From Caballeronia sp. SBC1 (GTDB taxonomy: Bacteria > Pseudomonadota > Gammaproteobacteria > Burkholderiales > Burkholderiaceae): 64,000 bases of DNA. The notes under the pieces were generated by a model, which saw only the letters and a list, made by a program, of their open reading frames with translations, did no database searches and had not been told where the DNA came from. The number at the start of each line of letters is the position of its first letter. Positions within the stretch are counted from its first letter, which is position 1. The stretch is taken from the NCBI RefSeq assembly GCF_011493005.1, contig NZ_CP049156.1, forward strand, positions 558,001-622,000, written 5' to 3'. Of the stretch, positions 7,237 through 9,050 are shown one piece after another. A program made the translations under genes and the position numbers.

Positions 7237-7267
7237 AAAAAAACCGCCAGGCTGCGCTGGCGGTTTT
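7237..7267 (-). terminator. Attenuator terminator (segments 3:4) upstream of aroG
   Basis: Read on the minus strand, AAAACCGCCAG (7267-7257) pairs with CTGGCGGTTTT (7250-7240) around the 6-nt loop CGCAGC, followed by seven T residues (7243-7237). It lies about 100 nt before the aroG start and 30 nt after the leader-peptide stop, so it acts inside the leader and not at the end of a gene. Confidence 0.85.
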
Positions 7268-7296
7268 TCGGGAAACTTGGGTTCTACACAAACGAC

Positions 7297-7362
7297 TCAC
7301 CCCTCTCGATCCGCCAGCGGCTTGAGATGCCAAAAAAAGTAAAAATAAAACTTGGCGGACAT
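7297..7362 (-). CDS. Aromatic leader peptide of the aroG attenuator (21 aa)
   Basis: A 21-residue ORF starting at ATG 7362-7360. It reads M-S-A-K, then seven consecutive aromatic residues FYFYFFW (codons 5-11; four Phe, two Tyr, one Trp), then HLKPLADREG and TGA at 7299-7297. All four Phe codons are TTT. Such a run is very unlikely by chance and matches the design of leader peptides that sense charged tRNA. The ORF sits between a promoter-like sequence (7431-7403) and the 3:4 terminator. No strong Shine-Dalgarno is visible before the ATG, which is the main weakness. The peptide is not expected to have a function after synthesis. Confidence 0.8.
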   Translation of the reverse strand: MSAKFYFYFFWHLKPLADREG

Positions 7363-7402
7363 GATGGTTTCGGTCGCGTTGGTAACAAATGAACGTCTGG
7401 CT

Positions 7403-7431
7403 TTATAACCCCAAACACGCGCGGTTGGCAA
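7403..7431 (-). promoter_or_regulatory. Probable promoter of the aroG leader transcript
   Basis: On the minus strand, TTGCCA (7431-7426) and TTATAA (7408-7403) are separated by exactly 17 nt and match sigma-70 -35/-10 elements. Initiation near 7396 would give a leader beginning about 35 nt before the aromatic peptide. Confidence 0.55.
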
Positions 7432-7583: not shown

Positions 7584-9050
7584 TCAAACCGTGCCGCCCA
7601 CCGTCATTTTTTCGATTCGCAAGGTAGGCTGGCCTACACCTACCGGCACACTCTGGCCTTCCTTGCCGCACACGCCCACGCCGCCGTCGAGCGCCATGTC
7701 ATTGCCGATCATGGTCACGTACTTGAGCGATTCCGGGCCGCTGCCAATCAGCGTTGCACCCTTCACCGGATACGTGATCTTGCCGTTCTCGATCATGTAC
7801 GCCTCGGACGCCGAGAACACGAACTTGCCGTTGGTGATATCGACTTGGCCGCCGCCGAAATTCACCGCGTACAAGCCGTTTTTCACCGATGCCAGGATCT
7901 CACCCGGGTCCTTGTCGCCGTTGAGCATGTACGTGTTGGTCATGCGCGGCATAGGCAGGGCGGCGTACGACTCGCGCCGCGCGTTGCCGGTTACCGGCAT
8001 TTTCATGAGACGCGCATTCAGCGAATCCTGAATGTAGCCCTTGAGAATGCCGTCTTCGATCAAGGTCGTGCACTGCGTAGGATTGCCTTCGTCGTCAATA
8101 TTCAGCGAGCCGCGCCGGTTCGGCAGCGTGCCGTCGTCGACAACCGTCACGCCTTTCGCCGCCACCCGTTCACCAATACGCCCCGCAAACGCCGACGAAC
8201 CCTTGCGGTTGAAGTCGCCTTCCAGCCCGTGGCCAATCGCTTCGTGCAGCAAGACGCCCGGCCAGCCCGGTCCAAGCACAACGGTCATTGCACCGGCAGG
8301 AGCCGGACGCGCATCGAGGTTAACGAGCGCCGCGTGCACGGCCTGATCGACATAGTGGGACAGGATTTCATCTGTGAAATAGGCGTAGTCGTAACGTCCG
8401 CCGCCGCCGCCGCTGCCCATTTCGCGGCGGCCGTCTTTTTCGGCGATGACCGTCACGGATACCCGCACGAGCGGCCGAATGTCCGCAGCCAGTGCGCCGT
8501 CGCTGCGCGCGACCAGCACGACGTCGTATTCGCCCGCGAGACCGGCCATGACCTGCACGATGCGCGGATCGCGGCCACGCGCCATTTTCTCGACACGTTC
8601 GAGCAATTTCACCTTCGCGGTGGCGTCGAGCGACGTGAGCGGATCGGACGGCAGGTACAGATCGCGGCCGAACACGCCCGTCAGCGAACTGGCCGACTTG
8701 ATCTTGTGCTTGCCGCCGCCGGCCTTTGCAATCGCGCGCGTGGCGATTGCTGCCTGACGGATGGAGTCTTGCGACAAGTCGTCCGAATAGGCAAACGCCG
8801 TCCGGTCACCCGACACGGCGCGCACGCCCACACCTTGATCGATGCTGAAGCTGCCCGATTTGACGATGCCTTCTTCCAAACTCCACGCTTCGCTGCGCGT
8901 GGACTGGAAATAGAGATCCGCGTAGTCCACGCGGTGCGTGAAGATCTCCGCCAGCGTGCGCGTAATCGTGGATTCGTCGAGGCCGTAGGGCGTCAACAGA
9001 ATCTCTTTCGCGGTGGCGAGATTTCGGATGCCGGGTTCGATGATGTTCAT
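7584..9050 (-). CDS. tldD: Metalloprotease TldD
   Basis: A 488-residue TldD protein, one half of the TldD/TldE(PmbA) zinc protease that degrades unfolded peptides and matures some peptide antibiotics. The zinc-binding HExxxH motif appears as LLHEAIGHGLEGDF near residue 267. Other family segments are LEEGIVKSGSFSIDQGVGVRA, GTLPNRRGSLNIDDEGNPT and VNFGGGQVDITNGKFVFSASEA. The length is normal and the start is ATG at 9050. The partner gene pmbA is not in the window, which is usual because the two are generally unlinked. It lies 101 nt downstream of the nitrilase-family gene on the same strand and may be cotranscribed with it. Confidence 0.96.
   Translation of the reverse strand: MNIIEPGIRNLATAKEILLTPYGLDESTITRTLAEIFTHRVDYADLYFQSTRSEAWSLEEGIVKSGSFSIDQGVGVRAVSGDRTAFAYSDDLSQDSIRQAAIATRAIAKAGGGKHKIKSASSLTGVFGRDLYLPSDPLTSLDATAKVKLLERVEKMARGRDPRIVQVMAGLAGEYDVVLVARSDGALAADIRPLVRVSVTVIAEKDGRREMGSGGGGGRYDYAYFTDEILSHYVDQAVHAALVNLDARPAPAGAMTVVLGPGWPGVLLHEAIGHGLEGDFNRKGSSAFAGRIGERVAAKGVTVVDDGTLPNRRGSLNIDDEGNPTQCTTLIEDGILKGYIQDSLNARLMKMPVTGNARRESYAALPMPRMTNTYMLNGDKDPGEILASVKNGLYAVNFGGGQVDITNGKFVFSASEAYMIENGKITYPVKGATLIGSGPESLKYVTMIGNDMALDGGVGVCGKEGQSVPVGVGQPTLRIEKMTVGGTV

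Follow-up and report, generated by a model that had tools for sequence, protein, structure and literature searches.

A predicted ribosome-mediated attenuator with an aromatic leader peptide in front of aroG in Caballeronia and its relatives

The attenuator of the trp operon, trpL, is laid out according to a four-segment logic of 1:2, 2:3 and 3:4 pairings, and E. coli aroG is under end-product control of the TyrR type. Attenuators in proteobacteria are reportedly treated by Panina 2001 and Vitreschak 2004, both cited in PMC1262725. In Corynebacterium glutamicum, the aroR-aroF system places a Phe-Tyr-Phe leader peptide before a DAHP synthase operon, and stalling raises transcription (Neshat et al. 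2014, as related in an excerpt of PMC11802643); in the same excerpt, the aroR attenuator is reported to respond to Phe and not to Tyr. An earlier sequence-only reading of the DNA studied here had called a mixed leader on a DAHP synthase unusual and knew of no published case in this lineage; the aroR attenuator is a precedent for such logic. The excerpt of PMC11802643 further describes attenuation via a leader peptide, governed by charged tRNA-Phe, for E. coli pheA (pheL) and pheST, as well as end-product control of the expression of the DAHP synthases aroF and aroH by enterobacterial TyrR and TrpR. According to an excerpt of PMC5343134, many gammaproteobacteria have conserved the repressors TyrR and TrpR, which other classes are reported to lack. 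The reported absence of these textbook controls raises the question of how such bacteria adjust entry into the shikimate pathway.

The whole window gave 0 matches at the gathering score to Rfam release 15, the Phe_leader family (RF01859) reaching 15.2 bits (E 6.2) against a gathering score of 55. The window's own genome gave no match to the TyrR-type HTH model TIGR04381, whereas the E. coli control was positive, in line with the contrast to TyrR control in E. coli that had been drawn from the sequence. The open-licence PMC literature that was searched yielded no description of an attenuator acting on aroG in any proteobacterium. A study of Burkholderia cenocepacia attributes 82 short 5'UTRs to processing or attenuation (excerpt of PMC5688073), and experimental evidence on the aroG leader may already exist in that set.

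The aroG leader and its competing pairings

The window, that is, the whole stretch of 64,000 nucleotides from Caballeronia sp. SBC1 that was analysed, carries aroG on its minus strand (7138-6065). The gene encodes a 3-deoxy-7-phosphoheptulonate (DAHP) synthase of 357 aa, which is matched by NCBIfam NF006723 at 597.3 bits (cut-off 568) and also by TIGR00034, and which is 99% identical to that of the nearest named relative, Caballeronia udeis (L031). It is preceded on the same strand by a leader ORF of 21 codons, MSAKFYFYFFWHLKPLADREG (7362-7297), with its ATG at 7362 and its TGA at 7299-7297. The regulatory codons TTT TAT TTT TAC TTT TTT TGG (F Y F Y F F W; 7350-7330, minus strand) are contiguous and gapless. 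A GC-rich terminator hairpin then spans 7263-7244 and is followed by a T7 tract (7243-7237), which ends 98 nt before the ATG of aroG. The leader ORF, the complementary segments and the hairpin with its T7 tract, all of which the sequence-only reading had placed in front of aroG, were read back base for base at their coordinates. The ORF upstream of aroG (7584-9050, minus strand) is presumably TldD-like, and the gene order upstream of aroG seems to be old. DNA similar to the 7584-9050 region also precedes aroG in leaderless relatives.

A run of at least six aromatic codons occurs once in the six frames of the window, as the leader run itself, and one additional run of five was found on the plus strand. 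The leader is likewise the sole ATG-initiated ORF of 10-60 aa in the window with at least six aromatics in eight residues, while 30 dinucleotide shuffles of the window yielded 0 runs of at least six and 0 such aromatic-dense ORFs. The locus thus possesses a short leader ORF dense in end-product codons, with a run that is unique in the window and conserved. The leader peptide matched none of the NCBIfam and Pfam models, and a plasmid search with the leader region as query gave no match.

The antiterminator arm, segment 2, is CGCTGGCGG (7319-7311, minus strand) and belongs to a segment 2 region that extends over 7304-7319 and also contains two arms of the proposed 1:2 hairpin, CGG (7313-7311) and GAGA (7307-7304). 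Segment 3, CCGCCAGCG (7263-7255), can pair either with segment 2 over 9 bp or over 7 bp with segment 4, the CTGGCGG of the predicted intrinsic terminator (7250-7244, minus strand). These segments, together with the 9-bp 2:3 pairing and the 3:4 terminator proposed for them, are exact in the window, and the pairings are conserved in relatives. The calculated energies are -18.3 kcal/mol for the 2:3 duplex, -11.9 for the 3:4 hairpin and -6.4 for the local 1:2 hairpin, although the energy of a duplex and that of a hairpin are not on strictly the same footing.

A hairpin followed by a T tract was found downstream of the leader in 153 of the 154 leaders scanned, the exception being L075. This count and the covariation of 3:4 indicate an intrinsic terminator between leader ORF and gene. 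Pairings were scored on two alignments, A1 with 44 leaders and A3 with 54, the latter including genomes outside the order and the class. The 3:4 pairing was kept in 97.0% of the cells with 16 double changes on A1, and in 97.9% with 29 double changes on A3; the corresponding values for 2:3 were 81.5% with 9 and 84.9% with 14. For both pairings and on both alignments, more cells were paired than in all 500 shuffles, a control that leaves relatedness in. When the 2:3 pairing was slid by +1 column on A1, 10 double changes were counted instead of 9, yet 42.8% of the cells were paired instead of 81.5%. On A3, two of the five measures for 2:3 did not clear the shuffles: the number of changed pairs was reached by 97 of the 500, and the number of pair types by 115.

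Concerted changes in all three segments were also observed. At position k6, a triple change from U-A-U to C-G-C in segments 2, 3 and 4 occurs in the families labelled f1, f3, f39 and f49, and is shared by f10, for which k5 is unpaired at the anchor; at k5, G-C-G is replaced by A-U-A in two sequences, L151 and L155. The cleanest evidence for the 2:3 antiterminator is base k8, which follows the CCGCCAG of segment 3 and lies in the terminator loop. Among the 185 leaders scored, which correspond to 157 distinct leader regions, this base is paired within 3:4 in 31 and with segment 2 in 148. An antiterminator explains the latter pairing, which a terminator alone would not. Along with the pairing counts on A1 and A3, k8 thus points to a 2:3 antiterminator that excludes the terminator.

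The spacing is constrained as well: in 180 of 185 leaders, the GCGG of segment 2 begins 9-19 nt downstream of where the aromatic codons end. In L038, L050 and L055, frame shifts inside the aromatic run leave segment 2 and the RNA on either side of it unchanged, which indicates that the sequence after the run is conserved as RNA. The parts of the leader, their conservation, their covariation and their spacing are therefore established by sequence and comparison. A variant layout is seen in L151-L155 and L159, which may be Sutterella-like: a CGAAC/GTTCG stem frames segment 2, and the terminator reads CCGCTAA...TTAGCGG.

The candidate promoter on the minus strand consists of TTGCCA (7431-7426) and either TTATAA (7408-7403), with a spacer of 17 nt, or TATAAA (7407-7402), with a spacer of 18 nt. 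A strict consensus scan of the window called neither a promoter nor a terminator at the leader, and both sides of the hairpin were free of promoter calls. By our reading, it missed both sites because the sixth base of the -10 element must be T and because the hairpin stem extends into the A/T tract. A looser rule asks for TTG and a -10 element that together match 8 or more of the 12 consensus bases and lie no farther than 110 nt from the leader ATG; it was satisfied in 118 of the 157 distinct leaders, whereas shuffled upstream DNA gave a mean of 19.1. A promoter is thus likely to lie upstream of the leader ORF. The 17-nt-spaced promoter of the sequence-only reading holds insofar as the site is present and its kind enriched upstream of leaders, but the strict scan does not bear it out.

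The start of the window leader is devoid of a Shine-Dalgarno sequence (anti-SD duplex of -0.1 kcal/mol), and 5 of the 157 distinct leaders show pairing at -4 kcal/mol or better. That level is reached for aroG at 89 of the 89 loci whose match starts with ATG, and the Shine-Dalgarno sequence of the window aroG is strong, at -6.4 kcal/mol. As Shine-Dalgarno pairing is almost absent from the leaders, their rate of translation is uncertain. Leader starts of this kind (7380-7362 in the window; 157 distinct leaders), next to a strong aroG Shine-Dalgarno sequence, are an odd and unexpected feature.

Proposed mechanism and rival readings

Taken together, aroG is very probably under ribosome-mediated transcription attenuation. 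We infer promoter use, leader translation, stalling and the effect of the individual amino acids as follows. RNA polymerase would start 5' of the leader, and a ribosome would translate its 21 codons. When charged tRNA-Phe or tRNA-Tyr, or tRNA-Trp where the codon is present, is scarce, the ribosome would wait in the aromatic run and cover the arm at 7327-7324, so that segment 2 would stay free. Segments 2 and 3 would then form their 9 bp before segment 4 exists; no terminator would arise and aroG would be transcribed. When aromatic amino acids are abundant, the ribosome would reach the stop codon and sit over or beside segment 2, whereupon 3:4 would form and transcription would end at the T7 tract. 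If no ribosome is on the leader, the 1:2 hairpin and 3:4 would both form, and aroG would remain off.

Folding of the 157 distinct leaders, with an assumed ribosome footprint reaching 9 nt downstream of the A-site codon, is consistent with this scheme. When a ribosome was placed on the final aromatic codon, at a stage before segment 4 is made, 2:3 was predicted in 152 leaders, whereas 3:4 was predicted in 138 without a ribosome and in 156 with the ribosome at the stop codon. The last figure is nearly built in, the RNA upstream, including segment 2, having been omitted, and the footprint of a ribosome so placed extends as far as the end of GCGG in 125 of the 157 only. For the stalled state, the covered stretch was trimmed in 23 of the 157 to leave segment 2 free; the folding test thus favours the attenuation model in part by construction. 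When segment 4 was present at equilibrium in the stalled state, 2:3 was predicted in 66 and 3:4 in 89 of the 157. Since this equilibrium leaves the choice open, the order of synthesis and the kinetics must decide, as in the published attenuation model.

Among the 157 distinct leaders, the peptide contains Phe, Tyr and Trp in 105, Phe and Tyr only in 49, Phe only in 2, and Phe with Trp in 1. Phe and Tyr are thus, as judged from leader composition, the core of the signal, and Trp is common and optional rather than the general part of the signal that the sequence-only reading had made of it. Mixed codons do not prove mixed sensing, because aroR of C. glutamicum has Phe-Tyr-Phe codons and Tyr is reported to be without effect there. 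Phe is encoded by TTT in 506 of 665 leader codons, as opposed to 55 of 586 in 93 aroG genes. This predominance of TTT and the gapless regulatory codons of the window point to tuning.

The part of the model most in need of discussion is segment 1. The proposed segment 1 lies directly 3' of the aromatic run (7327-7318, minus strand) and consists of UCUC (7327-7324) and CCG (7320-7318), which pair from U7327-A7304 to C7324-G7307 and from C7320-G7311 to G7318-C7313; support for it is moderate. This local hairpin was kept in 85.9% of the cells with 19 double changes on A1 and in 75.1% with 28 on A3, although on A3 neither the number of changed pairs nor that of pair types exceeded the shuffles. Its outer arms vary with the lineage, as UCUC/GAGA, UUCC/GGAA, UCCC/GGGA, UUUCU/AGAAA and CUAC/GUAG, and as CGAAC/GUUCG in the L151-L155 group. 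In 35 of 41 pieces, folding predicts a local stem that has segment 2 on its 3' side, a figure without a control; the minimum-energy fold of the window's own short piece differs from the local hairpin. RNAalifold returned no consensus pair for 31 local-hairpin pieces (of 41 made), the shuffle z-scores were near zero (mean -0.28, n=41), and flank-swap tests across lineages were weak (92/2000, and 483-853/5000 in five draws). The hairpin fits the stall nonetheless, as a ribosome on the last aromatic codons would cover its 5' arm and free segment 2. On these grounds, the local hairpin after the aromatic codons is fairly probably the 1:2 pairing.

The sequence-only reading had instead followed the classic layout, with segment 1 as CCGCCA (7358-7353, minus strand; codons 2-3), located 5' of the aromatic codons and pairing with the TGGCGG of segment 2. 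In the window this pairing is an exact 6 bp with a duplex energy of -9.9 kcal/mol, and on A1 it was kept in 75.4% of the cells and showed 9 double changes, both figures being higher than in any shuffle. On A3, however, it was kept in 68.4% of the cells with 12 double changes, compared with 75.1% for the local hairpin. CCGCCA lies within codons 2-4 in 61 of the 157 distinct leaders, including 49 of the 73 with PLADREG or PLADREE, and all 61 belong to the window's own family, where they make up part only (61/125). It is missing there in the other 96, of which 64 come from that same family, and a ribosome stalled at the last aromatic codons would already be past this arm. The margin between CCGCCA and the local hairpin is modest, and both exceed the shuffles in cells paired, which makes the choice a matter of degree; we regard CCGCCA as an unlikely segment 1. 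The attenuation of aroG as claimed from the sequence is thus strongly supported by comparison as regards a leader with competing 2:3 and 3:4 pairings, but not as regards CCGCCA, a general role of Trp and the lack of precedent.

Two other readings would dispense with attenuation or add to it. The hairpin could be the terminator of the upstream gene, with the aroG promoter downstream of it and the leader ORF incidental; the gap between the T7 tract and aroG in the window and the strict scan, which was empty on both sides of the hairpin, would allow for this. Yet the T tract is 28, 33 and 41 nt from the start of the AroG match in L107, L102 and L098, which leaves scant room for a promoter, promoter-like sites are enriched upstream of the leader, and an incidental ORF gives no reason to conserve the aromatic codons, their distance to segment 2 or the pairing of k8 with segment 2. 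We consider this reading very improbable. A role in trans of the leader peptide or of the terminated leader RNA, besides or instead of attenuation, is slightly easier to entertain and still quite improbable. The residues after the run are well conserved in many leaders (PLADREG, PLAEGEG, PLAEEG), and a trans function has been reported for an attenuator peptide, peTrpL of Sinorhizobium meliloti (excerpt of PMC7298713). Nevertheless, it is the RNA that conservation tracks after the run: the peptide changes along with it (SPKAVEKR, FTRTGG), and in L038, L050 and L055 the peptide passes into another frame while the RNA is kept. Attenuation by a ribosome on the leader is thus the reading that we retain.

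Distribution of the leader and its possible transfer

Up to 450 nt upstream of aroG were inspected at 258 loci (L001-L259 minus the paralogue L171), some genomes being represented twice owing to overlapping collections. The closest loci, L001-L110, are made up of the 30 top-ranking matches within the family, among them the window's own genome, and of the 80 top-ranking named records, with genera including Burkholderia, Paraburkholderia, Caballeronia, Trinickia, Pandoraea, Cupriavidus, Ralstonia, Collimonas, Herbaspirillum and Undibacterium. An aromatic leader ORF precedes aroG in all 110 of them, the window's own included. In 60 further regions picked among the same-family matches, the ORF was called in 46, of which 2 were spurious by eye, leaving 44, and none was found in 14; the leaderless regions include all ten genomes of the genus label g12. 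In L145-L147, L157 and L161-L170, which are genomes of approximately 1.7-2.8 Mb (g18, g9 and g12), aroG is present and no leader was found. The absence from the g18, g9 and g12 genomes is possibly due to secondary loss. Altered or decayed leader remains stand before aroG in L075, a named symbiont, and in L115, a genome of 1.2 Mb.

The order-wide set of 88 regions comprised L172-L199 and 60 regions picked among the further matches of a search that, at E 1e-140, reached 127 of its 200 genomes. After removal of six spurious ORFs by eye, a leader was present in 37 of the 88, in 14 of 32 families, and 45 regions were without one. The sequence-only reading had proposed to look for relatives lacking the run or the pairings: close relatives keep both, but the leader is lacking from 14 of the 60 more distant same-family regions and from 45 of the 88 order-wide ones. 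The automated ORF calls rejected by eye as spurious were those in L115, L160, L225, L229, L231, L242, L257 and L259; the real leader of L160 is likely to be farther upstream, as its hairpin stands 5' of the called ORF. Within the window's genome, the leader covariance model gave one significant copy (E 5.5e-17, the next best being 2.48). The second aroG-type gene of this genome (L171, G000 C3:1489540-1490577), located on another contig (1.8 Mb), encodes a 59% identical DAHP synthase and has no aromatic leader.

Covariance models were also used for wider searches. Model R1 matched 90 of 399 genomes of the order at E 0.01 or better; of four weak matches inspected, L290-L292 were due to chance and L294 was real. 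The model matches L286, L290, L291 and L292 were set aside as terminator-like chance matches. Model R2, whose construction drew on some of these very sequences, matched 49 of 398 genomes of a phylum sample at 43 bits or more, including 28 outside the order: f57 in the same class, and f81, f85, f88 and f92 in other classes. In a class sample, 5 of 274 genomes reached at least 43 bits, f57 being the only family outside the order; R2 matches under about 37 bits were taken as noise without one-by-one inspection. All 18 of the 28 outside-order matches that were inspected have an aromatic leader ORF, and the AroG match starts 39-73 nt after the model match. These genomes may be alpha- and gammaproteobacteria in the older sense.

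In an AroG tree of 50 rows, the rows that lie outside the order, 16 in number, fall into a single clade (100/95), which is joined to f4 rows within the sequences of the order (94/86). The tree was midpoint-rooted, and its rows comprise AroG of other classes from leader-bearing genomes only. This topology suggests that leader and gene were transferred together. The leader-bearing aroG of L279 (f43) is placed, on long branches, together with L171, the paralogue that has no leader. The leader may therefore not be tied to one orthologue and may have moved between paralogues, or the placement of f43 may be an artefact.

In its fullest form, our proposal is tentative, and we would put it somewhat below an even chance: the aroG leader would be an undescribed RNA family that forms a transferable cassette with its gene, reads the joint charging of tRNA-Phe and tRNA-Tyr, often also of tRNA-Trp, by means of a dense run of mixed codons, begins at a start devoid of a Shine-Dalgarno sequence, has its 1:2 pairing inside the ORF, acts as a main end-product control of shikimate entry where TyrR is absent, and has been transferred from the order into one further family of its class as well as into additional classes of the phylum. 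A conserved aroG RNA switch that is absent from Rfam and also occurs outside the order would answer part of the question of how entry into the shikimate pathway is controlled. The leader would also be a natural target in strains producing aromatic compounds.

Comparison with known systems

With regard to the systems described at the outset, aroR-aroF of C. glutamicum shares an aromatic leader peptide ahead of a DAHP synthase, the two being compared by function. It belongs to another phylum, and the seven contiguous aromatic codons are a feature of the window leader. The E. coli pheA and pheST attenuators have leader-peptide attenuation in common with aroG, but act on other target genes, whereas the leaders described here mix in Tyr and often Trp codons, and that of the window has no Shine-Dalgarno sequence. 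The trp operon attenuator shows the same four-segment logic; the aroG leader differs from it in its mixed aromatic codons, in a proposed 1:2 pairing inside the ORF and after these codons, and in a target at the entry of the pathway. Control by TyrR and TrpR likewise subjects the expression of DAHP synthase to its end products, but does so through protein repressors, whereas the aroG leader is predicted to be an RNA switch. The mechanism proposed here is thus that of classic ribosome-mediated attenuation, and the main surprise is the wide and apparently mobile distribution of the leader.
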